Made by a program: the position numbers and the translations under genes. Shown here one piece after another: positions 3,137-39,205 of a stretch of 43,726 nucleotides of DNA. The notes under the pieces were generated by a model. That model saw only the letters and a list, made by a program, of their open reading frames with translations, had not been told where the DNA came from and did no database searches. Location: NCBI GenBank assembly GCA_030446715.1, contig JAUJMU010000014.1, positions 1 to 43,726 on the forward strand, read 5' to 3'. Each line of letters starts with the position of its first letter. The stretch's first letter is position 1. Origin of the DNA: Cytophagales bacterium. GTDB lineage: Bacteria > Bacteroidota > Bacteroidia > Cytophagales > 172606-1.

Positions 3137-3213
3137 TGTCATCCCCGGAGGGGATCTTAGCAATGTAAGTCACTGATTGTCTATTACTACGAAGATCCCC
3201 TCCGGGGATGACA
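3137..3213. repeat. 22-bp perfect inverted repeat with 33-base spacer
   Basis: Arms 3137-3158 and 3192-3213 are exact reverse complements and each contains a CCCCGGAGGGG-type core related to the palindrome at 3032-3063. The right arm lies about 30 bases before the point where homology to the sulfatase at 22379 begins, so the repeat sits at the edge of a duplicated fragment. Confidence 0.75.
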
Positions 3214-3245
3214 AACCGGAGAACGGAGTATCAACTTATTTACTT

Positions 3246-3943
3246 TATGCCAGGTTTTCCCTTTACTTCTGCCGAGCAGATTTACTACGCTTCCGTAACG
3301 GCGCTGGACAGCCACCTGGGCCGCTTGTTTGATTATCTGGATTCCACCGGTCTGAGCCGCAATACGCTGATTGTTTTTGCCAGCGACAACGGGCCGGCTT
3401 TTATCGAATCGTTGCATGCGGGACATAGTGGAGCCGGGAGTACGGGTCCTTTCCGGGGCAGGAAAACGAGTATCTACGAAGGCGGCATCCGCCTGCCGCT
3501 GATTGTGAGTATGCCGGGTAGAATACCGCAAGGGACGAGTGAACGATACGACCGTGGTGGCCGCCATTGATTTTCTGCCGACCCTGTCGGCCATCATCGG
3601 GAGCAAAACGACTGCCAGAACGGACGGAGAAGATATGTCAGGCGCCTGGATGGGAGCTGGTATGTCCAGGAAAGAGCCTGTGTTCTGGCGCTGGCGCTGG
3701 CAGATGCCGCCGCAGCTCTATCACCGCAGCCCGGCCCTTGCCATGCGGCAGGGCCACTGGAAGTTGCTGATGAACCCGGACGGCAGCCGCGTGGAACTCT
3801 ACAATCTGTCCGCTGATCCTACCGAACTGGATAACCTGTCAAGGGAATACCCTCAAATAGTGCAGCAGATGCAAAAGGCCTTGCTGGAATGGCATAAAGC
3901 CCCTGCCCCAGGCAAAGTTCCAGGCAAGTGCCGGCCAGAATAA
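3246..3943 (+). pseudogene. Truncated sulfatase relic (C-terminal half only)
   Basis: The translation (FPFTSAEQIYYASVTALD onward) matches the C-terminal half of the sulfatase at 22379-23799 at very high nucleotide identity, and similarity continues to about 3953, just past the stop. Homology begins abruptly near 3246. The N-terminal half, including the formylglycine motif and the first metal-binding Asp residues, is absent, so it cannot encode an active sulfatase. Relative to the longer copy there is a one-base gain near 3535 (GGGACGAGTG against GGGAAAGTG) that splits the frame, and another small indel near the end. It looks like a partial duplication left beside a palindromic repeat. Open frames are 3208-3570 and 3539-3943. 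Confidence 0.88.
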
Positions 3944-8735: not shown

Positions 8736-8828
8736 CAACAACAGCAATAGGGGAGTTCAGGCAGGTGGCTTGCAGCGATGGGCCACCAATGAGTTTTGCC
8801 AATTACAATTTTAAAATTACGTACGTAT

Positions 8829-11800
8829 ATGCATCCTGAAAATTCAGATTTTAGAAACACCTTAAACAAGTTCAACTACACCTATTACTTCCTGGCTCAA
8901 CTACTCATTCTGTTGGTGGCTTGTTCCAGGGGAACACAATCTAATGACACTGCACAACAGGAAACTGGGGCAGTTCCAGCCGTGCAAAGGCCGCGCGAAG
9001 CCTGGGTACTCCGGTCCGTGCTGGATTTAAAACCCAGAATGCTAAGCATAGCCCTGCACGATAAACTCTGGCTCGCTTACAATACCCAAACCGCCTCTTT
9101 GTACAAGGCCTGGAACGGGACCATCAATTTTGAGGGCTCGGTTTATACCACCGCCCACGGCCCGCAACCCACTACTGAGGGGATAAGTTATATGCAGGAA
9201 CCGGACAGCGCTGCCTGGCAGCTTGTAGCCAACGGCACTGCAATTACCCCGGAAGTTATCTATAAAGGCCATCACATCATTAATAACCAGGTAACCCTAA
9301 ACTATGTGCTCCTTTATCCGGGAGGTCAGATAACGATTGCCGAAAAGCCGGAGGTGAAAATTACTGGTGGCGAACAAATAAGCCTGGAGCGGATTTTTAC
9401 GACCAGCGGTGTACCGGCCGGAGTTCAGGTGTCGCTAAACATGCATCTGAATTCACTCCTGAACGAAAATGATTACCAAACCGACGGCAGATTTACCGTG
9501 TCGGAAAAATCAGCGGAAGAGGTAGCTACCCAAAAATATTACGCCATCAGCGGACAATTGCAGCTGAATCCTAATGCCAGGACCAGCATGCTGGTAAAGC
9601 TATCCCCTAAACCAGCGCCTCCGGTGGTGGAATACCCGGTCTTAAGCAATGAAGAAGCCGTATCGGCCCTGATGGCAAAGAGTGATTGCAATACCTGCCA
9701 TAACAAGGAGCTAAGAACAGTCGGACCATCCTACCAGGCCATTGCCGCCCGCTACGATAATACCCCACAAATTACCGAGCGGCTGATCAATAAAGTCATA
9801 AAAGGCGGAGCCGGTAACTGGGGCCAGATACCGATGACTCCGCATCCTGATTTAGCCAAAGAAGATGCCGGTAAAATGGTGGCTTATATCCTGGCGCTGG
9901 ATGCCGGCAAAGCCGGAAAGGCAACCGCCCCTACGGCATTTATCCCATCCGATATTCCTTTTGAGCTGCAAGCCATTAACCCGGCCAAGGTTAATGTACA
10001 AGCCGAAAAACCGGGTATTGCGGTTAACGTGTACCAGTTTGAAGAAAACGTGTACGGCTTCCCATCCATTGATAAAAAGATGCTCCCGAATTTTTCAGGG
10101 ATAGCCAATATTTTACACGCCCAGAATACCGATTTTGGCGACCTGCAGGAGAACTTCGTGCTGCATGCTTCCGGTTACCTGAACCTGGCCAGGACAACCA
10201 ATATTGTATTCCGGCTGGTATGCGATGACGGAGCCCGTTTGTACATTGATGATAAATTAGTGGTGGAAAACGGCGGTAACAACCGGGGCGCCCCCCGGGA
10301 CGGCGAAATGCTCCTGAAAGCCGGTAAACACGCTTTTAAAGTCGAATATTTCCAAAGATGGCAAGGTAAAATGCTGTCGTTGCAATGGCGTCCGCATGGT
10401 GCCGATGCCTTTGCCGTAGTGCCGCCGGGTGTATTTACCTTTAAAGGGGCTGACATCAGAAGAACGCAACCGCCGGTTGTAACCAAGAAGGTAGCGCCTA
10501 CCCCCGGTGATGGAGCGGTACTGGCGGGTGTGCATCCCAGCTTTACGCTTTCTCAGGCCCGTCCAGCTAATTTTAAGCCCCGGGTAGGGGGTATGGATTT
10601 TCTGCCCGACGGTCGCCTGGTGGTGAGCACCTGGGATTCGCTGGGTGCAATCTATGTACTGGAAGGCGTGCAAAGCGCGGATCCGGAAAATATCAAGGTA
10701 AAACGCATTGCCTACGGACTGGCCGAACCTTTAGGGTTAAAAGTGGTGGATCGTGACATTTATGTACTGCAAAAACAGGAGTTGACCAAACTGGTAGATA
10801 CCAATAAAGATGATATCATTGATGAATACCAGACTGTTTGCAACGGCTGGAGGGTATCGGCCAATTTCCACGAATTCGCTTTTGGCCTGGTCTATAAGGA
10901 CGGTTATTTCTACGGCACCCTGGCTACGGCTATTAACCCCGGCGGGGCCAGTGCCAACCCCCAAATCCCTGACCGCGGCAAAGTGGTGAAAATCTCCCGA
11001 AAAGACGGCTCTTTTTCCTTCGTGGCCAAAGGGTTAAGGACCCCTAACGGCATTGGATTGGGCGTAGACAATGAAATCTTTATTGCCGACAACCAGGGCG
11101 ACTGGCTACCCGCGAATAAAATCCTCCATTTGCAGGAAGGGGCTTGGTACGGCTCCCGGTCGGTAGATTTTGAAGGGACTGCCCAATTAACCGAAACCCA
11201 ACCGGTAGTATGGTTGGCACAGGATGAAATCGGTAATTCGCCGAGTCAGCCAATATTATTTAATGTCGGCCCTTATCAAAACCAGATGGTGCACGGCGAC
11301 GTCAGGCACGGCGGCTTGAAAAGGGTGTTTCCCGAAAAAGTGAATGGCACTTACCAGGGGGCCGTTTTCCGGTTTACCCAAGGCTTGGAAGCCGGCACGA
11401 ACCGCTTGGTCTGGGGGCCGGATAAAGCCCTTTATATTGGCGGGGTGGGTTCTTCGGGCAATTGGGCACATACCGGGAAATTAACTTACGGGCTGCAAAA
11501 GCTAAGCTACAATAATCAACCTACCTTTGAAATGTTAGCGGTCCGGGCGAAGGCAAACGGCATGGAAATAGAATTTACCGAGCCCCTGAAAGCGGGAGCG
11601 GGAGTCAATGCCGCCGATTATACGGTTAAGCAATGGTATTATAAACCCACCGGCAATTATGGCGGCCCAAAGCTGGACCAAAGAAATCTGCAGGTGAAAA
11701 GCATCAACGTATCGGCTGACCGCAAAAGGGTTTTCCTGGAGCTGGAAGGCATGGAACCGAAACACGTGGTGTACATCCGGTTGGATAAGAATACCGTGAG

Positions 11801-11891
11801 CAGCAGCACGGGCAATAATCTGTGGGCGACGGAAGCCTGGTATACCCTGAATACGATCCCCGCGGAAACCGGGAAATCAAGCAAACGCTAA
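8829..11891 (+). CDS. Lipoprotein with cytochrome c, PA14 and glucose-dehydrogenase-like beta-propeller domains
   Basis: A 1020-residue protein from the ATG at 8829 (an in-frame TTG at 8796 is less likely). A hydrophobic segment ends in LLVAC, a lipobox with Cys32, so it is probably membrane-anchored. Residues 55-260 are a beta-rich N-terminal region. A mono-haem class I cytochrome c follows, with C287-N-T-C290-H291 and a likely axial Met336 (GQIPMTPHP). A PA14 carbohydrate-binding module is at about 400-535 (CDDGARLYID), a PQQ/sorbosone-dehydrogenase-like beta-propeller at 580-890 (GGMDFLPDGRLVVSTW, GLRTPNGIGLG), and a C-terminal Ig-like domain. Such fusions suggest sugar binding and oxidation with electron transfer to haem; no activity can be proved here. 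The nearby DUF1080 gene makes an oxidative glycan step worth considering. Confidence 0.88.
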   Translation: MHPENSDFRNTLNKFNYTYYFLAQLLILLVACSRGTQSNDTAQQETGAVPAVQRPREAWVLRSVLDLKPRMLSIALHDKLWLAYNTQTASLYKAWNGTINFEGSVYTTAHGPQPTTEGISYMQEPDSAAWQLVANGTAITPEVIYKGHHIINNQVTLNYVLLYPGGQITIAEKPEVKITGGEQISLERIFTTSGVPAGVQVSLNMHLNSLLNENDYQTDGRFTVSEKSAEEVATQKYYAISGQLQLNPNARTSMLVKLSPKPAPPVVEYPVLSNEEAVSALMAKSDCNTCHNKELRTVGPSYQAIAARYDNTPQITERLINKVIKGGAGNWGQIPMTPHPDLAKEDAGKMVAYILALDAGKAGKATAPTAFIPSDIPFELQAINPAKVNVQAEKPGIAVNVYQFEENVYGFPSIDKKMLPNFSGIANILHAQNTDFGDLQENFVLHASGYLNLARTTNIVFRLVCDDGARLYIDDKLVVENGGNNRGAPRDGEMLLKAGKHAFKVEYFQRWQGKMLSLQWRPHGADAFAVVPPGVFTFKGADIRRTQPPVVTKKVAPTPGDGAVLAGVHPSFTLSQARPANFKPRVGGMDFLPDGRLVVSTWDSLGAIYVLEGVQSADPENIKVKRIAYGLAEPLGLKVVDRDIYVLQKQELTKLVDTNKDDIIDEYQTVCNGWRVSANFHEFAFGLVYKDGYFYGTLATAINPGGASANPQIPDRGKVVKISRKDGSFSFVAKGLRTPNGIGLGVDNEIFIADNQGDWLPANKILHLQEGAWYGSRSVDFEGTAQLTETQPVVWLAQDEIGNSPSQPILFNVGPYQNQMVHGDVRHGGLKRVFPEKVNGTYQGAVFRFTQGLEAGTNRLVWGPDKALYIGGVGSSGNWAHTGKLTYGLQKLSYNNQPTFEMLAVRAKANGMEIEFTEPLKAGAGVNAADYTVKQWYYKPTGNYGGPKLDQRNLQVKSINVSADRKRVFLELEGMEPKHVVYIRLDKNTVSSSTGNNLWATEAWYTLNTIPAETGKSSKR

Positions 11892-11919
11892 TGCAAATGT
11901 TCCGGATAGGATGGACCAC

Positions 11920-11971
11920 CGGTTTATAAAGTATTAAGAAGCTTTAATTACTAAAAAGGCGGCAAATAAAC
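11920..11971 (+). promoter_or_regulatory. AT-rich leader element shared with 16236-16288
   Basis: About 52 bases, from CGGTTTATAAAGTAT to GGCAAATAAAC, align with few differences to the leader of the DUF1080 gene. Here it ends 88 bases before the alpha-galactosidase-like gene. Shared non-coding sequence ahead of two otherwise unrelated locus genes suggests a common promoter or operator, or a remnant of duplication. Confidence 0.45.
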
Positions 11972-12059
11972 GCAAAAACAAAATTTCAACTTTGAATTTT
12001 CTTAAAAATATTATATCCAGCTGCTTTACATCGTACGTGTTGGGCATCTTTTAATTTAC

Positions 12060-14117
12060 ATGACTAAACTTCTTATCAGAATAGCCTTCGGGCAGGTTTC
12101 ACTTTTTTTTCTTAGTCTGCTGCCGTTGTGTGCCCAGCAGCAGACTAAATACCTGGACTGCTCCGTGCTGTGGAACGACAGCCTGCTGGTGCTGGAAAAT
12201 GCGCAGATCCAACGAAAATATAACTGGAATAATGGACTGCTGCAAACCATCAGTATAACCAATAAAGCGACTGGCAAAAGCTGGGCATTGCAAACCAGTA
12301 AGCCGGATTTTTGGGTGCCGGGCATGCCGGAAACAGCCCGCGAAAGTAACCTGGAAGTAAACGTAGTAGCAGAAAACCCGGTACAGCACACGTATTTACG
12401 GGTAGTGGTAACTACCAAAGCCGGCTTGCTCCAGGTAAAGCGTATCTTTAAAGTATACCCGCAGGTACCCGCTATTGCCTGCGATTTTTACCTGCAAGGG
12501 GTAGCGGAGGCAGGTTGGCAGCAGCAGCAGCTCAGCCTCACCGACCTGAAAAACATTGAAGACGAAGCTGCCGCCAGGCAAGGCCAGATAGAAGCACCCA
12601 CCCTCGAAACCCTGGGTTTGCCGGGTAAGCATTGGCGACTGCGGAACGTCGAGTTTTTTGACGTTACCGACCGGAACAATACTTTAATCGATGAATCGGA
12701 AAGCCTGTTGTATATCCGGGAAAAGCGTTTGAGGGGCAACCTCCTGTTTGCGGAAGAGCTGGCGGACGGGCAGGGAATATTCCTGTTAAAAGAATCGCCG
12801 GCCGGTGAAAGTCAGCTGGCTTACCCGGGAAGTGATTTCGTTTGCAAAGCCGGTGAAGTTAAAATGATTGGCCTCGGGCTTTCTCCCGGCGACTTGCAAC
12901 CCAAAAGCTGGGTTAAATGCTACAGTGCCGTAACGGGCGTTTTCGGGCCCGGCGAATACGAAAAATTAGCCGCTTTGCGCAGCTACCAGGAAAAAATCCG
13001 GCGCCGGTTACCCGCCCGCGACGATATGATTTTAATGAATACCTGGGGCGACCGCAGTAAGGGATCAAAACTCAGCGAAAAATTTGCTATCGCGGAATTA
13101 GAAGCCGGCAAAAAATTAGGGATTTCTCATTTCCAGTTAGATGCCGGGTGGTACCAAACTACGCAACCCGGCGCAGAGGACTTCTGGAAACCGCATAAAG
13201 AAAAGTTTCCCAACGGTTTAACGCCCGTAGTCGCCAAAGCCAAGAGCCTGGGGATTGAAGTTGGTTTGTGGTTTACCCCGCATAAAGCAGGCGAATACCA
13301 GGGCTGGCAAAAAGATGCGGAGGCTTTATACCACCTGTACCAAACGTACGGCATCAAAACTTTCAAAGTGGACCTGGTGGATATTAAAACGAAGCTGGCC
13401 GAAGAAAACCTGCGTAAAATGATGGACACCCTGCAACAGCTAAGCCAGGGAGAAATTGTGCTTAACCTGGATATCACCGCCGGTAAAAGATACAGTTATC
13501 ACTACTTTAACCATTACGGTAATTTTTTTCTGGAAAACCGGTATACCGACTGGTTTAACTATTATCCGCACTGGACCTTGCGTAACCTGTGGATGCTCTC
13601 TAAATATGTCCCGCCCCAAATATTACAAGCCGAATTTCTGAATAAGTGGCGTAATCCAAATCAGTACGACAAAGCAGATAAGCTGGCGCCAAAAAATATT
13701 CCTTTTGATTATATTTTTGCGCTTACCATGATGGCGCAGCCTTTGGCCTGGTTTGAAGCCAGCCAGTTACCGGCCGAAGCCTTTGCCATTGCCCCGCTGG
13801 TAAAAGCCTATCGGGAACGGCAGGCCGACCTGCATGCAGGATTTATCTTTCCGGTGGGGGAAGAACCTTCGGGCCGGAGTTGGACCGGGTTTCAGTCCAT
13901 CCGGGGGAAAGAAGGCTACTTGCTGGTGTTCCGGGAAAACAATGACCAGACGCAAACATACCTGAGAACCTGGCTTCCTCCCCGGCAAGCGGTGAAACTG
14001 ACGGCACTACAGGGGCATGGGAAAAGTTTCAAGGCTAAAACCGATTCGGAAGGGCGGCTGGCAGTCCGGCTTCCTTCCTCCAACAGCTTTGCCCTTTATC
14101 ATTACCAGCTAAAATAA
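12060..14117 (+). CDS. GH36-like alpha-galactosidase (clan GH-D), secreted
   Basis: A 685-residue protein with an N-terminal signal peptide (VSLFFLSLLPLCAQQ). Residues 30-300 form a beta-sandwich-like N-terminal region and about 310-600 a TIM barrel. Visible motifs are FQLDAGWYQ (Asp361), VGLWFTPHKAGEYQGW, and FKVDLVD, where Asp438 occupies the place of the catalytic nucleophile in the KxD motif of clan GH-D. A later segment, NLDITAGKRYSYHYFNHYG, lies where the acid/base region is expected but is unlike the usual GH36 consensus. It probably releases terminal alpha-galactosyl or a related residue in the periplasm; the exact sugar is uncertain. The frame is intact. It follows a shared AT-rich leader and precedes the DUF4832 gene. 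Confidence 0.78.
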   Translation: MTKLLIRIAFGQVSLFFLSLLPLCAQQQTKYLDCSVLWNDSLLVLENAQIQRKYNWNNGLLQTISITNKATGKSWALQTSKPDFWVPGMPETARESNLEVNVVAENPVQHTYLRVVVTTKAGLLQVKRIFKVYPQVPAIACDFYLQGVAEAGWQQQQLSLTDLKNIEDEAAARQGQIEAPTLETLGLPGKHWRLRNVEFFDVTDRNNTLIDESESLLYIREKRLRGNLLFAEELADGQGIFLLKESPAGESQLAYPGSDFVCKAGEVKMIGLGLSPGDLQPKSWVKCYSAVTGVFGPGEYEKLAALRSYQEKIRRRLPARDDMILMNTWGDRSKGSKLSEKFAIAELEAGKKLGISHFQLDAGWYQTTQPGAEDFWKPHKEKFPNGLTPVVAKAKSLGIEVGLWFTPHKAGEYQGWQKDAEALYHLYQTYGIKTFKVDLVDIKTKLAEENLRKMMDTLQQLSQGEIVLNLDITAGKRYSYHYFNHYGNFFLENRYTDWFNYYPHWTLRNLWMLSKYVPPQILQAEFLNKWRNPNQYDKADKLAPKNIPFDYIFALTMMAQPLAWFEASQLPAEAFAIAPLVKAYRERQADLHAGFIFPVGEEPSGRSWTGFQSIRGKEGYLLVFRENNDQTQTYLRTWLPPRQAVKLTALQGHGKSFKAKTDSEGRLAVRLPSSNSFALYHYQLK

Positions 14118-14273
14118 GGCAGGTTAACTTAATTTAAATAACAGGACTTATGCAAGTCCATCCTGGCCAGGTGTATTTACCGGCAAATATAGCCATCAGT
14201 AAGGATGTTTGTAATACAGTCAGTTATTAAAAAGAAGCGAGAGTGCCTGTTACTATTTTAAAATTACTATCAA

Positions 14274-15754
14274 ATGTTACAAAAATCAGTGCTACCTGTA
14301 TTATCGTTTCTACTGCTTTGCTTTTTGCCAGCTCTTCAGCAAAAGGAACAGCTTAGTAATAAAAAGATACGTTTTGAAAAAGATGAACAAGTAAAAAAAC
14401 TGGATTTACAAAAGTTATGGGATACGACCAAAGTTTGTAATAATCCACATAAGGGCTGGTACATCCATTATTTCGATAATGGCATCAGTAAATATCATAA
14501 TAAACTTGCAAAAGGGGATTTTCTAAAAGATTTTCCCGGCTTAAACCACGTTTATCTGCGATTAGCCTGGAGTTACCTGGAACCGGAAGAAAACCGTTAT
14601 AATTGGGATGTAATAGATACGGTCATTACAAAATGGGTTGCGCAGGGTTACACAGTTTCTTTTCGTATTACCTGTAAAGAAACCAGCCAGCAATTTGCTA
14701 CGCCCGAATGGGTAAAAAATGCAGGGGCAAAAGGCACCATGATCAAGAAAGAAGGGAAACCAGATGCTTGGGAGCCTGATTTTGGCGACCCGGTTTTCCT
14801 GGAAAACTAGAAGATTTTCACCGGGTTTTTGCCGGACGCTACGATGGCAAGCCTTGGGTTGAATACGTAGATGTTGGAAGCTATGGAGACTGGGGAGAGG
14901 GGCATACCTCGTTTGGCAGTAAGAAAAAATGGCCGGTAGAAGTAATTAAAAAGCATATTGATATTCATACCAAATATTATAAAAAAACCCTGGTCGTAAT
15001 CAGCGACGATTTTTTCTCAAACAGAAGCAACACGAATAAGGAAGAGGCCCAGGCAATTCTGGATTATATACTCGCCAAGGGTCTGGCTATAAGGGACGAT
15101 AGTGTGTGCGTAAAATCGTACGCCAGGCAATTTGGGTTTAGCACCTTGAAAGACCCTGAGATGTTTCAAAAATTTTGGCCCGATACCCCGGTTAACCTGG
15201 AACTTGAGCATTATCACAAAACAGTAGAAGAAGGCACCTGGAAGAGAGGCTTACCTTTTGCTGCCGCCATCAGGGAAGCCCGGGCTACTTTTATTGGTTT
15301 TCATGGTCACCCGCGGGAATGGCTGGCCGAAAACCCGGAAATAGCCAGAATTTTAGCTAATAAAGCAGGCTATTGGTATTTTTTACAGGAAGCAGAAGTG
15401 CCGTTGTTTATTAAATCAGGAACCTCGGACTGGTTGAAGTTGCATTGGGTAAACAAGGGCGTTGCTCCGGCTTATTTCAAATACAAACTTCTGCTAACGC
15501 TTCAGGGGGTAAAGAACAAAGAAAGTTATACAATTGCGCTGCAAGAGTCAGATAATAGAAAGTGGATGCCTGGTGAAGTAAGTACAGAAAAGTACAAAAT
15601 CAAGGTTCCCGCGTCTCTTAAAAAACAAAAATATAAAATGCTGGTAGCATTAAGAGAGGAAGCTGCCGGTAAAATAGTACCCATAGAATTAGGTTTTCAG
15701 GACAAAATAAAGCGGGATAATGCTTATGAAATTGGCGTGTTGGAGATCCGATAA
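14274..15754 (+). CDS. DUF4832-type glycoside-hydrolase-like protein, one frameshift
   Basis: Two frames (14274-14810, then open to 15754) join into one protein of about 493 residues. The break is at A-run 14803-14806; one more A turns EN-stop into EKLEDFHRVFAGRYDG and continues cleanly. The signal peptide is LPVLSFLLLCFLPALQQ. The N-terminal half looks like a TIM barrel (NPHKGWYIHYF, YLRLAWSYLEPEENRYNW) and includes VDVGSYGDWGEGH, the hallmark of proteins carrying DUF4832, whose WGE Glu is a plausible catalytic acid. The C-terminal 130 residues are a beta-sandwich (WVNKGVAPAYFKYKLLLTL). Relatives are called beta-galactosidase-like, but activity is not established. The start sits 7 bases after ATTTTAAAATTAC, also found before the gene at 8829. 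Confidence 0.78.
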
Positions 15755-15778
15755 ATACCAGTTAATGGGAATCTTACT

Positions 15779-15976
15779 GGTTCCTGGAGAGATGCAGGGA
15801 AAGGCTGGTATAAAACCTCACCCCCCGACCTCCTCTCCTGAGGCGAGGGGGAGAAAAACCCTGTTTTGAAGTCCCTCTCCCAGGAGAGACAAGCCTAAAC
15901 GAGAGTTTGGAGCTTGCGAACGTAGTTCTAGGGTGAGGTCCTGCAACCGGTAATTTCCTATAAGTCTTCAGAAACC
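15779..15976 (-). repeat. MITE-like element, copy 1 (inverted relative to 22155-22348)
   Basis: This 198-base stretch aligns over its whole length with the reverse complement of 22155-22348. It begins with GGTTCCTGGA and ends with a degraded version of the complementary end (CAGAAACC). Internal palindromes contain the CTCTCCC...GGGAGAG cores. No coding capacity is seen. The rest of the 570-base gap, to 16325, holds the shared leader and a small open frame at 16006-16245 with no recognisable product. Confidence 0.75.
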
Positions 15977-16235
15977 ATCTTACTTAACTTAAGCGCTGTT
16001 GGCCGATGAATTGTCATAAATCGAAACAGGCAGTTTGCTACCCTGGTGATGTAGCGGCGCTGGCAGGCACGCACGCGGGTTTACCCTTGATTAAGCCCTT
16101 TAATTGGAGAGGTAAGATCTTCGGTAACTGGGCCTGTCCGGGGAAAATTAAACACGGCTTGCAAAGGTTTACCTGCCGTAACCAGCCTATGATACTGATA
16201 TGTTCATACCCGCTAACACAATTGGATAGTTCAAT

Positions 16236-16288
16236 CGGTTTATAAAATATCAAATAAGATTTAATCGCTAAAAATATGGCAAATAAAC
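16236..16288 (+). promoter_or_regulatory. AT-rich leader element shared with 11920-11971
   Basis: The segment from CGGTTTATAAAATATC to GGCAAATAAAC matches the leader of the alpha-galactosidase-like gene with one small indel and scattered substitutions. It ends 37 bases before the DUF1080 gene start, where a promoter or operator would be expected. Confidence 0.45.
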
Positions 16289-16325
16289 AAGTGATCAGTA
16301 TTTTAAATATATATTTTCCAAGAAA

Positions 16326-17052
16326 ATGAATGCCTTCTTATCCTTTATTCTTATTGCTAGTTTACTTTTTGCTTGTGCTTCTACGTCTGGCAGTAGTTCT
16401 GCCAACATAAATAATACCTTAACCAAAGCCGAAGAGAAAGCAGGGTGGCAATTGCTCTTCGATGGCAAATCAATGGAACATTTCCGCGGCTTCCGGAAAG
16501 AAAGTGTGCCAGCCTCGTGGCAAGTAGAAGACGGTGCCATTGCCTTGACCGGCAAAGGCGGCGGCGATATTATTACCAAAAACCAATATGAGAACTATGA
16601 ATTAAGTCTGGACTGGAAAATTGCGGAAGGCGGTAACAGTGGGGTTATTTATAATGTCTCGGAAGAGCCCCAGTACGCTAAGACCTACAATACCGGCCCG
16701 GAGATGCAGGTGCTGGACGATGAACGGCACCCGGATGCTACGAAAGGGAAGAACGGCAACCACCGGGCGGGTTCGCTTTACGATTTAATCCCTCCGTCCA
16801 CGCCGGCTGTTCATCCGGCCGGAGCGTGGAACACGGCCCGGTTGGTGGTAAACAAAGGACACGTGGAGCACTGGCTGAACGGTAAAAAAGTAGTGGAATA
16901 CCAGTTAGGGGAGCCCCGAATGGGAAGCAATGGTGAAAGAGAGCAAATTCGCTTCCATGCCGGGGTACGGCCGCGTCAAAAAAGGCCACATTGCCCTGCA
17001 AGACCACGGCGACAAAGTGTGGTACCGGAATATTAAAATTCGGCTGCTTTAA
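16326..17052 (+). CDS. DUF1080 / 3-keto-disaccharide hydrolase family protein, frameshifted near the end
   Basis: About 241 residues when repaired. The N-terminus has a lipobox-like LLFACAST (Cys near residue 18). The body is a concanavalin-like beta-sandwich typical of DUF1080: GWQLLFDGKSMEHFRG, SWQVEDGAIALTGKGGGDI, FDWK-type LSLDWKIAEGGNSGVIYN, and GPEMQVLDDERHPD. The open frame ends at 17036 in unrelated residues, but G-run 16908-16911 has one base too many; removing it gives SPEWEAMVKESKFASMPGYG and the family's usual C-terminus (GHIALQDHGDKVWYRNIKI) ending at 17052. Family members hydrolyse 3-keto-glycosides or bind glycans. It is probably lipid-anchored. It may act with an oxidoreductase; the cytochrome/propeller lipoprotein at 8829 is the only candidate in the window. 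Confidence 0.88.
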
Positions 17053-22378: not shown

Positions 22379-23799
22379 ATGAGATCTTTAATTTTTCTGT
22401 TCACAGCAATCTGTATTGCCTGTTGTATTGCCTGTCCCGCCTTAGCGCAAAAGCCCTCCCGAACCTCTCCCAAAACGAGAGACGCAGCAAAACGCCAGCC
22501 GGCAAAACCCAACGTGATTTTTATCCTGGCTGATGACCTGGGCTGGGGCGATCTGGGCTGTTACGGCAACGAGAAAATCAAAACGCCCAACCTGGATAAA
22601 CTGGCAGGCAGCGGCATTTTGTTTACCCACTTCTACGCCAATGCCCCCGTGTGCGCCCCCAGCCGGGCAGCCTTCTTCACCGGCCGCTACGCCGAAAGTT
22701 CGGGCGCCTACAGCGGGGACGGGGCCAACGAAATTGAAGTGCCTGCCGGACTGCCTAACCTGGCTACTCTTTTCAAACAAGCCGGTTACCAAACCCTGCA
22801 TACGGGCAAATGGCACCTGAGCGCCAGGACCACGCCGGATAAGTACGGCTTTGACCAGTACCAGACCCGGGAAGCCAACAGCTGGGGGGAGCGGCAAAAG
22901 GACCCTTACTTCCGGGCCAAGTCTACCGGGTACCTGGTGGAGAACACCATTGATTTCATCAAAGCCCATCCGGAGAGTCCTTTTTTCGTGCAGCTCTGGG
23001 CCGTGCTGCCGCACGATATTCTTTTTCCCACCGAGGAGCAGCTGGCATGGTACGAGGAGTACGACATGCGTAAAAAATTCAAAATACCCGGCTTCCCGTT
23101 TACTTCCGCCGAGCAGATTTACTACGCTTCCGTAACGGCACTGGACGACCACCTGGGTCAGTTGTTTAATTATTTAGATTCCACCGGTCTTAGTCAGAAT
23201 ACGCTGATTGTTTTTGCCAGCGATAACGGGCCCGGCATGATGGAAGCCCTGCAGGTGGGCCACAGTGCCGCCGGCAGTACGGGTCCTTTCCGGGGCAGGA
23301 AAACAAGTATCTACGAAGGCGGCATCCGCATGCCCTTGATTGTGAGTATGCCGGGTAGAATACCGCAAGGGAAAGTGAACGATACGACCGTGGTGGCCGC
23401 CATTGATTTTCTGCCGACCCTGTCGGCCATCATCGGGACCAAAATGACTGCCAGAACGGACGGAGAAGATATGTCAGGCGCCTGGATGGGAGCTGGTATG
23501 TCCAGGAAAGAACCCGTCTTCTGGCGCTGGCGCTGGCAGATGCCCCCGCAGCTCTATCACGCAGCCCGGCCCTTGCGATGCGGCAGGGCCAGTGGAAATT
23601 ACTGATGAACCCGGACGGCAGCCGGGTAGAGTTATACAATCTGTCCGCTGACCCCACGGAGTTGGATAACCTCTCGCGGGAATACCCGCAAATAGTGCAG
23701 CAGATGCAAAAGGCCTTGCTGGAATGGCATAAAGCCCTGCCCCCGGCAAAGTTCCAGGCAAGCGCCGGCCAGAATGATTATAATTGGCCGGGGGAGTGA
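22379..23799 (+). CDS. Sulfatase (CAPSR active site), frameshifted near the C-terminus
   Basis: A formylglycine sulfatase of about 473 residues when repaired. The signal peptide is IFLFTAICIACCIACPALAQ. Motifs are FILADDLGWGDLGCYG, C92-A-P-S-R96 followed by AAFFTGRYAESSGAY, HTGKWHLS, FASDNGPG and SIYEGGIRMPLIV. The open frame stops at 23605 in meaningless residues; the true C-terminus (MRQGQWKLLMNPDGSRVELYNL) is open in the next frame to 23799. The break is at about 23560, where TATCACGCAG should read TATCACCGCAG: the duplicate at 3246-3943 has the extra C and reads through. The two copies are damaged at different places, so this gene may be intact in the organism. It is the last gene before the regulatory module. 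Confidence 0.9.
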
Positions 23800-31026: not shown

Positions 31027-31198
31027 GGGCAGGATGTTCTTTGCCCGCCCAAAAGCAGGCAGGCTGCTCAAGTAACAGACTAAAATCAATTTAACCTCTT
31101 TATACCCTTTACCCATTCTACCTATGAACATAATTACATTGCCCTTCTTTGCTTGGCCTACCAACGGATTGGGGAAAGCGGCAATCAAACAATCATGT

Positions 31199-32731
31199 AT
31201 GACCCGGCTGCTGTGCCTGCTGTTTTTGCTGATGCCGATGCTGCTAAAAGCCCAGGTAGCGGCTCGTCGGGCCAATGATTTGATCGAGACTATGGCCGTA
31301 AATACGCATTTAGGCTATACCGATTCAAAGTATTATCTCCAGTACGAAACCATCAAATCCCGCCTGGCTGAGCTAAAGGTCCGGCACATCCGCGATGGGG
31401 TCAGGCTCCGGTGGGCACATAAATATGAAGTACGGGACCGCTATCTGGAGTTGTACAATACTTTGGGCATCTCTGTACTTTTTGTAGGAGGAGTCAAAGA
31501 TGCAAGTGACGTACTGGATGCTACCCGGATTCACGAAGAGTTGGATTTTCTGGCGCCGGCCGCCCAAGCCATCTACTCGGTAGAAGGGCCTAATGAATAC
31601 AGGAAGAATAGCGACTGGCCTACCGTATTGCTGAATTATCAGCGGGAACTCTACAACCAGTTGAAAGCCCATCCCACCTTATCTAACGCCAAGCGGGTAG
31701 GCCCTTCGGTGATTGCCGGCGACATGTCGCAAGCCCTCGATATGAGTGCCTACTGTGACTATGGCAACCTGCACCTGTACCTGAACCATCCGGGAGGAGA
31801 TGCCGGAGGAAGTAGACCCGTAAAATATACTAAGATTCTTACCGAGTACGACCGGATATTTGGAGCGAATAAACCAGGTATGATTACCGAAACCGGTTTT
31901 CACAATGCCTTAAGTAAAGATCCTGCTAAACCTTATCGTCATTTTTCCTACCGGGTGAGTGCCAAAATGGTACCCCGCCAGTTTACCCAGTATTTTGCCG
32001 ATAACCGGGACTGGCCGGTGGTTTCCAATTATGAATTTATTGATATCCGCAACAATGAAACTTACGCGGAAGACAACTGGGGATTGTTGCACCGGGACCT
32101 GACGCCCAAGCCGGCTTATACTTCACTGAAGAACCTGATCACTCTGCTCCACGATACGGATGCTACCTTTACGCCTTCTTCGCTGGACTACAGTTTAAGT
32201 GGAGATATGACCGATGTGCGGCACCTGCTCCTGCAGAAAGGCGACGGCAAGTTTTATTTGTGCACCTGGCTGGAGTTGCCTAAAGACAAGAGTTATAATT
32301 CTACCACCGGTGCGGAGTTTGACCCCACCCGTTCCCTGACCTTGAACTTTGGTTCGGCGGTGGCAAGCATGAAACGCTATGAGCCTTGTGATCCCGACAA
32401 CTTAACTACGGGTACAGCAGCCAAACAGACTTTCAGCAATCCTGCGTCTTTGGAGATCACGGTTCATGACTGGGTGAGCGTGTACGAGATCGAACTGAGC
32501 CAGGTAAAGAACTTTACTTTAATCAATGCCGAGACGCAGCAGCCGGTGGCCGACTTTGATCCATTCCGGATAATGCTGTCGTTGACTTTACCAAAACTCG
32601 GTACTACGCATTTAACTATCCGGGCCAATACTTTTCCCCAGCAGGTGGACAGGGTGATGTTTGACTACGATGGCACTGCGGTTACTCCACCGACTCTGCC
32701 TTTCCCTACGCCCTTGCCGACAGCAGACTGA
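31199..32731 (+). CDS. Secreted clan GH-A-like glycoside hydrolase, tandem copy A (frame breaks in C-terminal module)
   Basis: The ATG at 31199 gives a direct signal peptide (MTRLLCLLFLLMPMLLKAQ); an upstream in-frame ATG at 31124 adds 25 residues. A (beta/alpha)8-barrel follows. Glu in EGPNE (residue 158 counted from 31124) is the likely acid/base and Glu in MITETGFH (residue 256) the likely nucleophile, as in GH39/GH5-type clan GH-A enzymes. NLHLYLNHPGG is the usual beta-6 segment. A C-terminal beta-sandwich (DVRHLLLQKGDGKFYLCTWLELP) follows the barrel. From about 32565 the frame is disturbed and the predicted tail is wrong; the real module continues in other frames to 33571. The exact GH family is not certain. 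It should be exported and surface-displayed by T9SS. Confidence 0.8.
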   Translation: MTRLLCLLFLLMPMLLKAQVAARRANDLIETMAVNTHLGYTDSKYYLQYETIKSRLAELKVRHIRDGVRLRWAHKYEVRDRYLELYNTLGISVLFVGGVKDASDVLDATRIHEELDFLAPAAQAIYSVEGPNEYRKNSDWPTVLLNYQRELYNQLKAHPTLSNAKRVGPSVIAGDMSQALDMSAYCDYGNLHLYLNHPGGDAGGSRPVKYTKILTEYDRIFGANKPGMITETGFHNALSKDPAKPYRHFSYRVSAKMVPRQFTQYFADNRDWPVVSNYEFIDIRNNETYAEDNWGLLHRDLTPKPAYTSLKNLITLLHDTDATFTPSSLDYSLSGDMTDVRHLLLQKGDGKFYLCTWLELPKDKSYNSTTGAEFDPTRSLTLNFGSAVASMKRYEPCDPDNLTTGTAAKQTFSNPASLEITVHDWVSVYEIELSQVKNFTLINAETQQPVADFDPFRIMLSLTLPKLGTTHLTIRANTFPQQVDRVMFDYDGTAVTPPTLPFPTPLPTAD

Positions 32732-33571
32732 AGACAATACCTACCTTTCTGGACGCCTTCTCTGGGTGAGCCACCCTGACGGCTACCCCTTACGCGGGAT
32801 CGGATGCGCCAGTGCGATGGGCACGGGGAGTATGCTTCGTTTCTCGGTCACCAACTCGGTGCAGAACCTGGCGGTAAATAAACCCGTTACGGCTACTTCT
32901 GCTCAGGCCGCTCATCCGGCTGTGCTGGCCGTGGATGATGATGTGACTGCCCGCTGGTGCTGAGAAGTGGCCCGTGTGGCTGGAAGTGGACCTGGGCAAG
33001 GTTTACCTTATTGAGCAGACCCAGCTGCTCACCCGCAGAGCCGTTCCTACCGCTACAAGATCGAAGTCTCCGCTGATAGTGTAAATTATACTCACCTTAA
33101 CAAGACCACGGCTACCGGGAAGCGGGTTTGTTCACCGACAGTTTTGCTCCTCTTGCTGCCCGCTACGTGCGGGTGGAAACTGCTGGAGGATGAAGTGGAT
33201 ATGACGGGAAAGGAAAAAGACGGATGGGTAAGCCTTGCTGAATTCCAGGGTGTTCGGCAAAACGATGCTGGATGCTCCGGCAGGGGCGGCCCCAAAAGGA
33301 GTTGAAAAGATAGTAGCCGATTTCCTGTCCCCGCCTGGGGCTCTATCCCAACCCGGCGGGGGGAGCCCTGCGGGTAGCGTATTTGGCCAGCCAGGCCGGA
33401 GGTCCATGTCCGGCTGCTGCCGTGAGCGGCGGGGGCGGCTGACTACTGCTTACCCAGGCGGTAAAGGCAGCAACATCTTTCAGACGTGAGTGCCTTACCG
33501 CTGGGTGTGTACCGGGTACGGCGGCAGGGGTGGGCCTGCCGGTAGTGGGAAAACTCGTCATTGCCAGGTAG
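32732..33571 (+). pseudogene. C-terminal module of copy A (Ig-like, F5/8 type C, T9SS signal), frameshifted
   Basis: Joined across frames this reads as a beta domain, an F5/8 type C-like domain (NLAVNKPVTATSAQAAHPAVLAV; KIEVSADSVNYTHLNKTTAT; FGKTMLDAPAGAAP) and a T9SS sorting domain ending LVIAR at 33571. At least ten single-base indels break it. The same module is in copy C (38238-39205) with different indels, so a consensus of both would be largely open. It belongs to the gene starting at 31199 if the breaks are sequence errors. Confidence 0.75.
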
Positions 33572-33750
33572 CCCTAAATAGCTGTTTTTAGCACCTCACC
33601 CCGGCCCCTCTCCTTGGGAGAGGGTGCCAGGGCCGGAGCGACCCGCTGGGTGTCACTCCCCGCCGGAGCTTTTGGCAACCGGTTTCAGCATCCTTTTTTA
33701 GTTTCTGCTCTTCTTTACTTTCGACTGTCCCTACCCTTACTTAATCTTTT

Positions 33751-34958
33751 ATGCTGACATTTACTCCCAATGCCCCCTGCTCTGCCCACCAACCGGTTGG
33801 ATCAAGCTGGAACAAAGCAATCATGTATGACTAAGCTGTTGTGCTGCTTTCGCTGGTGCCAACGCTGCTGCAGGCGCAGGTAGCGGCCCGTCGGGCCAAT
33901 GACTTCATGGAACCATGGGCGTGAATACCCATTTTGGCAATGGAAACTTTGAAAAATCAGTATAACCACGGCTACGACACGTTGAGAAATGGTATCTGGG
34001 TGATTTGAAAATGCGCTATATCCGGGAAGGGATGCGTTCTGATTGGCCGCAAAGATTTACTACCCGGGATAAATACCTGGATTTATATCAGACTTCAGGA
34101 ATACGCCTGCTCTACATCTGTGGGAAACAAACCGAACTACAGGTGTGGCAGATACCACGAGGATCAAGGCTAATTTAGATCTTATTGGAGAAATTGCGCC
34201 TGCCATTTATTCGGTGGAAGGCATCAATGATACAAGAAGAACAGTGACTGGCCCGAACAGTTAAAGAATTACCGAAAGAGTTTATACAATCAACTGATAA
34301 ATCATCCTACGCTGAACAAGGCGCTAAGGGTGGGGCCCTCTTTTGTTTACAGGGATATGTATTCCGCTTTGGATATGAGCGCTTATTGTGACTACGGAAA
34401 TTTGCATATTTACGCACCTCATCCCGGAGGCGATAATCTCGAGAAGACCTTTGCTCAAAATTTAGCAGAATACGACAGGGTTTTTTGGTAAAGACAAACC
34501 AGGGTTAATTTCAGAAACCGGTTTTCATAACGCCCTAAATACTACTACCGGAAACAGGCATTTTTCTTACCGGGTAAGTGCTAAGATGGTGCCCTCGTCA
34601 ATATACCAGTATTTTTTGGATAACCGCGACTGGCCAGTGGTAGCATTATGAACTCATTGATGAATGGACCGATGAAACAGCAGTGGAACATAACTGGGGT
34701 TATTGTACAGAGATTTTAGTCCTAAGCCCGCCTATTATTCTTTTAAGAAACTTAAATACGCTTTTAAATGACAGAGCGCGACTTTCACCCCCTCTTCCCT
34801 GGACTACACTTTAGCAGGCGATATGACCGATGTGCGGCACCTGCTCCTGCAGAAAGGCGACGGCAAGTTTTACGCACTCTGCACCTGGCTGGAAATACCT
34901 AAAGACAAAGTTATAATTCACCACCGGTGCGGAGTTTGACCCTACCCGTTCCCTGACC
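33751..34958 (+). pseudogene. Glycoside hydrolase domain of tandem copy B, heavily frameshifted
   Basis: Across frames the region aligns with copies A and C from the leader (ATG at 33751; signal peptide region ending LLQAQV) through the barrel: YSVEGINEYKKNSDW after repair, ALDMSAYCDYGNLHIYAPHPGG and LISETGFHNALN. Both likely catalytic Glu positions survive, with GPNE replaced by GINE. Single-base gains and losses are frequent (for example a T-run too long near 34487). It joins in frame order to the open part at 34959. Either this copy is decaying or the sequence is poor here. The preceding gap 33572-33750 carries a degraded GC hairpin and a leader also found before copy C. Confidence 0.75.
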
Positions 34959-36536
34959 TTGAACTTTGGTTCGGCGGTGGCAAGCATGAAACGCTATGAG
35001 CCTTGTGATCCCGATCACCTGGAAACGGGTACTGCTGCCAGGCAGACTTACAGCAATCCTGCTTCCCTCGGCATCACCGTTCGTGATTGGATCACTGTCT
35101 ACGAAATCGAGCCTGCGGTTGATGTAGTGGTTTCTGATGTCAGCTGGACCCCGGCTGATCCGGTAACGGGCACAGGAGTTACTTTTAAGGCAACCGTTAA
35201 AAACCGAGGAACCATTGCTACTCCTTCGGGTACTGTTTTAGGCGTTTCTTTCAAAGTGGACGGTAAGCAGGTAAGCTGGTCGGATACTTACACTTCTTCT
35301 TTGGCTCCCGGCGCATCGGTTACCCTTACGGCCAATAGCGGCCCCAGTGGCAGTGCTGGCTGGACGGCTACCGAAGGCTCCCATACAGTAGAGGCGCATG
35401 TAGATGACATCAACCGGATTGCCGAGAGTGATCATACCAATAACAAGCTCACGGCACCCCTGACCGTACAAGATCTTACCGTCACCAGCTTTACTTTGCT
35501 CAATGCTGATACGGATCAACCCGTCAGTGGCTTTGATCCCATTGCTGATGGCGCCGTGATTGACTACACCAAACTCGGCACGAGCCGCATCAGCATTAGG
35601 GCCAGCACTTCCCCGGCTACGGTGGGCAGCGTCAGGTTCGGCTACGATGCAACGGCCAGTTACAGAACAGAGGAGGTGGCCCCCTACACCATTGCCGGGG
35701 ATGTCAGTAACGGCATGGATTACCTGCCCTGGACCCCTGCTCCGGGCAGCCATACCCTGACGGCTACGCCTTACACCAATGCCGACGGAACCGGCACGGC
35801 TGGTACGGCTAAAACCATCAGCTTTACCATTGCCAATAACGCCACTAACTTAGCGTTAAACAAACCCGTTGCGTTTTCTTCCCAGCAAACCGGCAACGAA
35901 GCCGCTAAAGCGGTGGACAATGATTTGACTACCCGCTGGTCGGCTAGCGGCTATCCCCAAACCCTGCGGGTAGATTTGGGCAAGAGCTACAGTATCAACA
36001 GGACCGAACTGGCCCCCTACCAGAACCGGGCTTACCAGTACAAGGTAGAAGTATCCACCGACGGGACTACCTACGCTCAAGTAGTCAATCGAACGACCAA
36101 CACCACCGGCGGCAGCCTGCTGGCTGATAACTTTACGGCCGTTACTGCCCGCTACGTCCGGCTCACCGTCACGGGGGCTTACAACTACACCGGCGGCTGG
36201 GTTTCTATCAACGAGTTCAGGGTATTCGGCAAAGAACTGGTCACAGTCAACGCCAGACTGGCCTACGGGCTACAGGGGGAGGAAAGTGAAACCAGGTTGT
36301 ACCCTAACCCGGCCAAGGGGGCAGTAACCCTAAGCTATACGGCCAGCCAAGCCGGAGAGGTGCAAATCCGGCTGCTGGACAATAGTGGTCGGCCCTGCCT
36401 GACTACTACTCACCAAGTGGTAAAGGGGACTAATACCTTCCGGGTAGATCTTGGTACAGTACCGGGTGGGTTATATGTAGTGCAGCTGCAGGGAGCCGGC
36501 CTGCCGGTAGTGAGAAAACTCGTCATTGCTAGGTAG
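34959..36536 (+). CDS. C-terminal half of tandem copy B: beta-sandwich, CARDB, F5/8 type C, T9SS signal
   Basis: A 525-residue open frame whose ATG is internal: the first 50 residues are the end of the hydrolase beta-sandwich (SMKRYEPCDPDHLETGTAA). Then CARDB at about 55-170 (VVVSDVSWTPADPVTGTGVTFKA; DINRIAESDHTNNKL), an Ig-like domain at 170-290, F5/8 type C at about 295-430 (NLALNKPVAFSSQQTG; VSINEFRVFGK), and a T9SS type A sorting domain from LYPNPAKGAVTLSY to LVIAR. It is the tail of the gene that starts at 33751, not a separate protein, and it is nearly the same as 1-1335. CARDB and discoidin modules are adhesive or sugar-binding, the last domain a secretion tag. Intact throughout, in contrast with its N-terminal half. 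Confidence 0.88.
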   Translation: MNFGSAVASMKRYEPCDPDHLETGTAARQTYSNPASLGITVRDWITVYEIEPAVDVVVSDVSWTPADPVTGTGVTFKATVKNRGTIATPSGTVLGVSFKVDGKQVSWSDTYTSSLAPGASVTLTANSGPSGSAGWTATEGSHTVEAHVDDINRIAESDHTNNKLTAPLTVQDLTVTSFTLLNADTDQPVSGFDPIADGAVIDYTKLGTSRISIRASTSPATVGSVRFGYDATASYRTEEVAPYTIAGDVSNGMDYLPWTPAPGSHTLTATPYTNADGTGTAGTAKTISFTIANNATNLALNKPVAFSSQQTGNEAAKAVDNDLTTRWSASGYPQTLRVDLGKSYSINRTELAPYQNRAYQYKVEVSTDGTTYAQVVNRTTNTTGGSLLADNFTAVTARYVRLTVTGAYNYTGGWVSINEFRVFGKELVTVNARLAYGLQGEESETRLYPNPAKGAVTLSYTASQAGEVQIRLLDNSGRPCLTTTHQVVKGTNTFRVDLGTVPGGLYVVQLQGAGLPVVRKLVIAR

Positions 36537-36578
36537 CAATAACGGCTACTTCCCACGACGGCTGCAACCGGAATAGAG

Positions 36579-36608
36579 CCGGCGGGTGTCACTACCCGCC
36601 GGGCTTTT
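36579..36608 (+). terminator. GC-rich hairpin with T-tract after copy B
   Basis: Stem CCGGCGGGT (36579-36587) pairs with ACCCGCCGG (36594-36602) around GTCACT and is followed by GCTTTT, a fair intrinsic terminator. It begins 43 bases after the stop codon. A degraded version follows copy A near 33640, so it is part of the duplicated unit. Confidence 0.6.
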
Positions 36609-36791
36609 GAGCGCCTGTTTCAGCACCCTTTTCAGTTGCTACTCTCCTTTGGTTTCTACTCTCCTTTACTTTTGACTGTTCCTACCCTTGCTTAATCTTT
36701 TATGCTAACCGCTACCTTAAATGCCCCTGCTTTGTCCACCAACGCGTTGGGTCAAGCCAGAACAAAACAATTACGAACAAAACCACTACGG

Positions 36792-38237: not shown

Positions 38238-39205
38238 CTATCCGGGCCAATACTTTTCCCCAGCAGGTGGACAGGGTAGTGTTTGACTACGATGGCACTG
38301 CGGGTTACTCCACCGACTCTGCCTTTCCCTACGCCCTTACCCGACAGCGGAGCTGAAGACAATACCTTTCCTGGACGCCTTCTCTGGGTGAGCATACCCT
38401 GACAGCTACCCCTTACGCGCGGATCGGATGCCGCCAGTGCGATGGGCACGGGGAGTATGCTTCGTTTCTCGGTCACCAACTCGGTGCAGAACCTGGCGTA
38501 AATAAACCCGTTACGGCTACTTCTGCTCAGGCCGCTCATCCGGCTGTGCTGGCCGTGGATGATGATGTGACTACCCGCTGGGTGCTGAAGTGGCCCGTGT
38601 GGCTGGAAGTGGACGCTGGGCAAGGTTTACACCTTATTGAGCAGACCCAGCTGCTCACCCACCAGAAACCGTTCCTACCGCTACAAGATCGAAGTCTCCG
38701 CTGATAGTGTAAATTATACTCACCTTAACAAGACCACGGCTACCGGGGAAGCGGGTTTGTTCACCGACAGTTTTGCGCCCCTTGCTGCCGCTACGTGCGG
38801 GTGAAGCTGCTGGAGGATGAAGTGGATATGAACGGGAAAGGAGAAAGACGGGTGGGTCTCGCTCAACGAGTTGAGGGTGTTTGGCAAAACGATGCTGGAT
38901 GCTCCGGCAGGGGCGGCCCCAAAAGGAGTTGAAAGAAAGTAGCCGATTTCTTGTCCCGCCTGGGGCTCTATCCCAACCCGGCCAGGGGAGCCCTGCGGGT
39001 AGCGTATTTGGCCAGCGAGGCCGGAGAGGTCCGCGTCCGGCTGCTGGCAGTTAGCGGCCGGGGGCGGCTGACTACTGCTTACCAGGCGGTAAAAGGCAGC
39101 AACAGTTTTCAAATAGACGTGAGTGGCTTACCGGGTGGGGTGTACCTGGTGCAAATTCAGGGCGCCGGCCTGCCGGTAGTGGGAAAACTCGTCATTGCCA
39201 GGTAA
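38238..39205 (+). pseudogene. C-terminal module of copy C (Ig-like, F5/8 type C, T9SS signal), frameshifted
   Basis: The same module as at 32732-33571. Joined frames give YSTDSAFPYAL, NKPVTATSAQAAHPAVLAV, WPVWLEVD, KIEVSADSVNYTHLNKTTAT, FGKTMLDAPAGAAP and then an intact T9SS sorting domain in the open frame 38951-39205 (LYPNPARGALRVAY to LVIAR). Indels sit at sites different from those in copy A. It is the tail of the gene at 36792. Confidence 0.77.

Follow-up and report, generated by a model that had tools for sequence, protein, structure and literature searches.

How the many DUF1080 (3-keto-disaccharide hydrolase) proteins of one bacterial family come by their 3-keto substrate is the question raised by a locus of a Cytophagales bacterium (contig JAUJMU010000014.1), in whose family we counted 8 to 31 DUF1080 matches per genome (eight genomes). 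The window, i.e., the whole stretch of DNA analyzed here, consists of the first 43,726 bases of this 174-kb contig (contig C3) in a genome of 6.4 Mb. It encodes a lipoprotein with a cytochrome c domain, a PA14 domain and a propeller (8829-11891, plus strand; ATG at 8829, in an open reading frame (ORF) running from a TTG at 8796) and, 4.4 kb away with two genes between, a DUF1080 gene (16326-17043, plus strand). The first-pass annotation had paired the two into a route of oxidation followed by cleavage, coupled to the respiratory chain. A heme-propeller dehydrogenase is a candidate for the source of the 3-keto substrate, and we lean, with somewhat better than even confidence, toward a family-level mechanism in which a periplasmic, quinohemoprotein-like glycoside dehydrogenase is predicted to feed a DUF1080 3-keto-glycoside hydrolase. 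The corresponding claim for the window is weaker: its redox protein is intact, its DUF1080 frame is broken, and the pairing of its two genes is not conserved.

Fusion of DUF1080 to the heme-propeller protein

The redox half of the window pair is preserved in full. Its class I cytochrome c domain (9660-9899, plus strand; PF00034 at 25.3 bits, cut-off 21.3) carries CNTCH at 9687-9701 and a distal Met at residue 336 (numbered from the ATG), and the features that mark a class I c-type cytochrome (CxxCH, distal Met and PF00034 above cut-off) are all present. In the PDB, the domain resembles small cytochromes c (E = 6.9e-15 for the best of them), and both CxxCH and the downstream Met are kept in 80/80 orthologs at the alignment column. 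A PA14 domain follows (10122-10409, plus strand; 54.9 bits, cut-off 24). With PA14 and DUF1080 far over their cut-offs and the cytochrome modestly over, the domain matches are not due to chance, and the heme site and PA14 domain described by the first-pass annotation both stand. It had also called this the only redox protein of the window, and we found no other redox family among the 21 ORFs scanned, which are part of the window's ORFs. The protein carries a lipobox-like stretch (LLILLVAC); the lipobox regular expression matched in only 40/80 orthologs, so that lipoprotein character is not established as a trait of the family.

The full-length orthologs considered here are the best 80 of at least 496 relatives matched (46-66% identical), and the fractions derived from them are no census. 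DUF1080 is fused at the C-terminus of the cytochrome c-PA14-propeller protein in 50 of the 80, and 27 are unfused; two orthologs cut by contig ends (L057 and L090) and a partial one (L112) were counted as neither and were excluded from the tree. Three fused proteins from named isolates (L052 of Fulvivirga marina, L069 of Lewinella cohaerens, and L097) match PF06439 at 150-169 bits, and the occurrence of the fusion in named strains means that it is not a metagenome artifact. According to a quick tree built from 78 rows, there have been at least four changes of fused state; fused rows occur to either side of the midpoint root, and the window lies within an unfused set of 20 (Shimodaira-Hasegawa-like approximate likelihood ratio test, SH-aLRT, 100). 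Loss of the DUF1080 domain in the window's clade is likely under a root that was placed at the midpoint and not inferred.

The window's DUF1080 gene is related to the fused domains. Its readable part agrees with them in 42/45 of the columns shared by at least 90% of them, identity reaches 55%, and a quick tree, in which branches are long, groups the gene in one subfamily with all 50 fused domains (SH-aLRT 93). We dropped the claim that the gene is a split-off fused domain; the DUF1080 tree does not place it so.

No report of the fusion or of its families was found among the literature matches listed, which cover titles and the start of abstracts, with subscription journals mostly outside the scope. 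Papers are cited by accession, and statements about them are limited to the accessible parts of their text; within those parts the fusion goes without mention in PMC9007349, PMC10881899, PMC5352709, PMC5673643, PMC11003636, PMC11501099, PMC10628242, PMC6881789, PMC6881810, PMC12124388 and PMC9765024.

Pairing of propeller and DUF1080 genes

The two modules also meet as separate genes. The window's family has 13 shorter propeller paralogs, with 32-39% identity across the parts that match, and every one has a DUF1080 match no more than 2.4 kb away. The C-terminal electron carrier is interchangeable between heme and copper among these paralogs, their tails carrying either a cupredoxin motif (9/13, confirmed by Pfam on 2 of the 9) or a cytochrome c motif (CxxCH, 4/13). 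Two paralog-adjacent DUF1080 proteins checked by Pfam both contain PA14. At L025:6250-10421 and L026:6038-10055, a propeller-cupredoxin gene directly adjoins a DUF1080-PA14 gene. Contig C8 shows a third layout: there the propeller gene adjoins one that matches cupredoxin and, just below cut-off, DUF6797, and for the three propellers of this type no DUF1080 lies within 5 kb. The same modules seem to be distributed differently among propeller loci. The co-occurrence of the two genes, which the first-pass annotation had proposed to survey, thus amounts to fusion in 50/80 orthologs and a strict gene pair in 13/13 cases among relatives; the pairing holds at the level of the family, but the window's own pair is not conserved in the related genomes G003 and G004.

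In the window's own genome, 4/8 propellers have a DUF1080 gene at a distance of 5 kb or less, with 0.17 expected; the 5-kb limit was set after the data had been seen, the window pair is among the four, and two gene ends (the C4 and C18 paralogs) are approximate. Of its 11 DUF1080 places, four are within 5 kb of a propeller, one of a GFO/IDH/MocA gene and six of neither. The genome holds 28 GFO/IDH/MocA matches and three matches to PF13618, which we take to be linked to LacABC as a small subunit of that type. A Gfo/Idh/MocA 3-dehydrogenase just outside the window would have spoken against the pairing, as the first-pass annotation had pointed out; downstream on the contig the nearest lies at C3:70764, which is 53.7 kb from the DUF1080 gene and 27 kb beyond the end of the window, and upstream is the contig end. 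The PF13618 matches are on contigs C4 and C10, with none on the window's contig, which begins at the window. Elsewhere in this genome (L144:3572-10350), a 1138-aa CxxCH/GSDH-like protein is encoded 2.2 kb from another DUF1080 gene (minus strand), together with a gene with a twin-arginine-like start and an isomerase-like gene beside DUF1080 that resembles ISO1 of L097.

Fold and candidate cofactor site of the propeller

The propeller (10512-11516, plus strand) has its best fold matches among six-bladed sugar dehydrogenases that use pyrroloquinoline quinone (PQQ). An AlphaFold2 model of 10512-11864 (predicted local distance difference test, pLDDT, 90.9; alignment of 48 sequences, 35 of them among the 80 orthologs) retrieved as top PDB entries 2ism (Z = 29.1), 3a9g (28.6) and PQQ-bound 3das (27.7), all of them PQQ sugar dehydrogenases. 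Profile comparison by hhalign against eight aldose-dehydrogenase-like proteins, the first template row of which matches 2g8s, gave E = 8.9e-12 and paired His681 (10869) with the catalytic His144, and Arg737 (11037) with Arg228 at the PQQ quinone; these are the roles described for soluble glucose dehydrogenase (sGDH) in PMC6881810 and PMC6881789. His681, Arg737 and Arg859 (11403; its role was assigned by eye from the alignment) are invariant in 80/80 orthologs.

Sequence alone does not reveal this likeness. PF07995 gave no match to the propeller at E = 0.01, and PDB chains searched with the lipoprotein and with a propeller profile yielded cytochromes, PA14 and designed or NHL-like propellers, with no PQQ enzyme, so that structure and hhalign were needed. 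A comparison with a GSDH-type set drawn from relatives of neighboring proteins reached only a probability of 47.5 (P = 1.9e-4). The propeller half scored 25.3 bits against DUF7133, just below the cut-off of 27, and 25.1 bits against TIGR02604 (PVC-type heme-binding CxxCH protein), far below the cut-off of 122.2. The description of the propeller as sugar-dehydrogenase-like is hence supported by the predicted structure and by profile comparison, but not by PF07995 at the sequence level.

Neighbors of fused and unfused orthologs

On the strand of the ortholog and up to 5 kb away, fused loci encode GFO/IDH/MocA proteins (12/50 vs. 0/27 unfused), isomerases (10/50 vs. 0/27) and MFS-like proteins (13/50 vs. 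0/27). At least one of the three occurs at 23/50 fused loci, and none of them at over half. The GFO label was checked by Pfam on one representative and the isomerase label on two; the SusC, SusD, MFS and regulator labels are our own assignments from sequence clusters. Such neighborhoods, including the GSDH-like cluster at L144, recall the route of oxidation, elimination, hydration and reduction for glycosides (PMC10628242).

In 12/80 loci (L035-L037, L039, L040, L042-L047 and L050), a large regulator-like gene, a SusC-like gene and a SusD-like gene precede the lipoprotein gene; to judge from these cluster-based labels, the row is a small utilization locus. In a Dyadobacter strain, SusC and SusD genes precede the lipoprotein gene. 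Next to the fused protein, L097:13562-16159 and L053:5254-8622 encode GSDH-PKD-cytochrome c-CBM6 proteins, the latter also with ThuA, and such a protein is a candidate for a second heme dehydrogenase in the same cluster.

Proposed mechanism and alternative explanations

We propose that the propeller would use a PQQ-type cofactor, scavenged from the surroundings, to oxidize a glycoside (C3 being the most likely position), and that the electrons would pass from the propeller to the heme c of the same protein and from there into the respiratory chain. The DUF1080 domain, fused or as a separate protein, would then cleave the 3-keto-glycoside. Where fused operons carry the genes, the keto-sugar might be imported (MFS), isomerized (TIM-barrel isomerases) and reduced (GFO/IDH/MocA). 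The domain architecture, the fusion, the pairing of genes, the predicted fold and the conservation of His681, Arg737, Arg859, CxxCH and Met are established; we infer the cofactor, the position of oxidation, the order of the steps and their periplasmic location. The fullest version of the proposal, that of a widespread Bacteroidota quinohemoprotein glycoside 3-dehydrogenase and 3-keto-glycosidase in one polypeptide, using scavenged PQQ and passing electrons through heme to respiration, with the window carrying an unfused ortholog and a DUF1080 gene nearby, falls slightly short of an even chance. If true, glycan cleavage would be tied directly to respiration, and a PQQ-scavenging phylum would be given a use for PQQ.

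Several observations weigh against this proposal or against the specific gene pair of the window. In the window, PF06439 positions 1-160 lie at 16443-16928 and positions 154-187 at 16909-17043 in another frame (32 bits), a break near 16.91 kb that is either a sequence error or a pseudogene; the DUF1080 gene of the first-pass annotation is upheld as to family (ORF 16326-17036, PF06439 at 150.4 bits, cut-off 26.8), but not as an unbroken frame. G002, G003 and G004, from the same family, encode full-length orthologs of the lipoprotein (64-65%), and the nearest DUF1080 lies 30 kb from the ortholog in G003 and 881 kb in G004, by a distance measure on match coordinates that covered only some of the G004 DUF1080 places. 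The window pair is thus not conserved, 0/2 assessable same-family orthologs having DUF1080 within 10 kb; the ortholog's contig in G002 (10.4 kb) holds no DUF1080 and is too short to judge pairing. In G004, which is one contig, 3/14 propellers are within 5 kb of DUF1080, a modest excess reached by 197/20000 random placements (a test that covered all 31 DUF1080 places). Among the 27 unfused orthologs, DUF1080 is present on the fetched stretch, in some cases a short one, only at L067, where it is adjacent, and at L043, as a weak match about 7 kb away. SusC accompanies 16/27 unfused and 2/50 fused genes, and none of the 27 unfused genes has a GFO, isomerase or MFS neighbor; the unfused clade, which includes the window, is set in a context of another kind, and its substrate, partner or function may differ as well. 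That the window's own DUF1080 works and is the lipoprotein's partner appears doubtful, though far from negligible.

The cofactor and the chemistry are also open to objection. On the model, sGDH scores no better (Z = 24.7) than Diels-Alderase propellers (24.6-24.7), lactonase and diisopropyl fluorophosphatase (DFPase) propellers are close behind (about 23-24), and the Foldseek TM-score to PQQ enzymes is only about 0.5 on the length of the model. The first-pass annotation had named the absence of cofactor residues as evidence against its idea, and half of the site is missing: the equivalents of His144 and Arg228 are kept, but that of Asn229 (residue 738) is Thr in 80/80 orthologs, and that of Lys377 (residue 826; equivalence by eye, with the sGDH letters around Lys377 presumed) is Thr in 67/80 and Cys in 13/80, and Arg in the window. 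PqqC was above cut-off in 0/30 genomes, with one weak match, and 0/14 control genomes were positive; PqqE gave no match over cut-off in the window's genome. Since 0/206 PqqU-bearing Bacteroidota have PQQ synthesis genes (PMC12124388), scavenging would be expected and the missing PqqC is unsurprising. The solved relatives of the propeller oxidize C1, not C3. As to DUF1080, ten such genes of a Pedobacter had no lactose phenotype (PMC9007349), and deletion of BT2157 left growth on raffinose-family sugars unchanged (PMC11501099).

For the window alone, and compatibly with the family-level proposal, there is nearly an even chance that the two genes have no functional connection and lie near one another by accident within a sulfated-polysaccharide locus. 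The lack of pairing in G003 and G004, the two intervening genes, the broken DUF1080 frame and the frequent position of unfused orthologs beside SusC/SusD all fit this, but the propellers of the same genome are near DUF1080 more often than expected, and the window's DUF1080 shares its subfamily with the 50 fused domains. Far less probable is a propeller that is catalytically dead, of lactonase type or ligand-binding, with a cytochrome serving another purpose: the Diels-Alderase, lactonase and DFPase scores and the incomplete PQQ site would suit it, but not the invariance of His681, Arg737 and Arg859 or the exchange of heme and copper carriers among paralogs.

Two further explanations accept an active enzyme and change its chemistry. 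Like sGDH and aldose dehydrogenases, the propeller may oxidize sugar ends at C1 and so form lactones, with DUF1080 as an ordinary glycosidase or a binding jelly roll. The nearest solved folds are indeed sugar dehydrogenases, sGDHs produce lactones (PMC6881810), and a DUF1080 protein is reported to act on native xanthan as an endo-xanthanase (PMC10881899); we still consider this unlikely, as PMC9007349 cites the DUF1080 protein BT2157 as hydrolyzing 3-ketotrehalose and some fused loci have the GFO/IDH/MocA and isomerase genes that partner 3-keto pathways (PMC10628242). A slightly smaller share of our belief goes to C3 oxidation by GFO/IDH/MocA or LacABC, with the heme-propeller in another role such as oxidation of the released sugar or of a side group. 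GFO/IDH/MocA genes close to 12/50 fused genes, and the 28 GFO and three PF13618 matches of the window's genome, would allow it; against it stand the 38/50 fused genes that lack a same-strand GFO gene within 5 kb, the distance of 27 kb from the window to the nearest GFO, the lack of PF13618 on the contig, and the four DUF1080 places near a propeller vs. the one near a GFO gene. We retain oxidation by the heme-propeller followed by DUF1080 cleavage as the preferred account of the family; what the first-pass annotation observed in the window is partly confirmed, and what it made of it is partly supported.

Other features of the protein and the locus

Besides the domains discussed, the lipoprotein has a C-terminal beta domain and an N-terminal all-beta domain (8988-9620, plus strand; pLDDT 90.3 for an AlphaFold2 model from an alignment of 41 sequences, 40 of them from the 80 orthologs). 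By hhalign the latter resembles three proteins of the same genome (probability 92.4, E = 5.2e-7), of which two are just below the DUF6797 cut-off and one is without a match, and its DUF6797-like label depends on these sub-threshold Pfam matches. Against the PDB it has no clear solved relative, with weak matches to GH38 and mutarotase-like structures.

The window as a whole is a polysaccharide locus that encodes sulfatases, an alginate lyase-family protein, GH28, FecR, a TonB-dependent SusC-like receptor and SusD. The genes between the lipoprotein and DUF1080 genes are a Melibiase/GH97-like glycoside hydrolase (12060-14117, plus strand; PF02065 at 36.2 bits, cut-off 27) and a GH42-like/DUF4832 gene split over two frames (14274-15754, plus strand). 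A sulfatase-like stretch at 3187-3943 is likewise spread over more than one reading frame, and the multi-frame state of this stretch and of the DUF4832 and DUF1080 genes suggests sequence errors or decay. Near-identical sulfatase C-terminal sequence occurs at 3509-3940 and 23407-23796, with frames broken in both, apparently as a second, partial copy of the sulfatase starting at 22379. Repeated CARDB/F5_F8/secretion-tail-like stretches with broken frames, apparently duplicated, occupy 31076-39202.

Comparison with known systems

The family shares with the sGDH/aldose sugar dehydrogenases (2ism, 3das, 1cq1) the propeller fold and the equivalents of the catalytic His and Arg228; unlike them, it is without the Asn229 and Lys377 equivalents or a PF07995 match, and has extra heme, PA14 and DUF6797-like domains. 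To the PVC-type heme-binding CxxCH proteins (TIGR02604) it is linked by a related propeller stretch with a weak match, although the window protein scores far under that family's cut-off. The 3-keto pathway of BT2156-BT2160 type comprises DUF1080 with isomerase and GFO genes, and oxidation there is by GFO-type enzymes. Some fused operons of the present family have the same partners, whereas here a heme-propeller is fused to DUF1080. An alternative pathway of glycan breakdown was reportedly described in Nature in 2024.

Closer in redox design is the AA12 quinohemoprotein pyranose dehydrogenase CcPDH, in which a PQQ propeller is fused to a cytochrome domain; Lys377 is missing from it and from AA12 enzymes generally (PMC6881789). 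CcPDH differs in being fungal and in carrying heme b. To our knowledge, it has no DUF1080.

Closest in the order of steps is the periplasmic LacABC plus DUF1080 route proposed from fitness data in Caulobacter and others (PMC9007349), in which membrane-linked oxidation is followed by proposed cleavage by a nearby-encoded DUF1080 protein. The first-pass annotation saw its route as a replacement for the usual NAD-dependent oxidoreductase; with LacABC this is not new in kind, and periplasmic oxidation followed by DUF1080 is the known part. LacABC, however, is a separate three-component dehydrogenase, whereas here a PQQ-type propeller would act together with a heme c that it carries itself, and DUF1080 is often part of the same chain; it is this redox partner and the single polypeptide that would be new.

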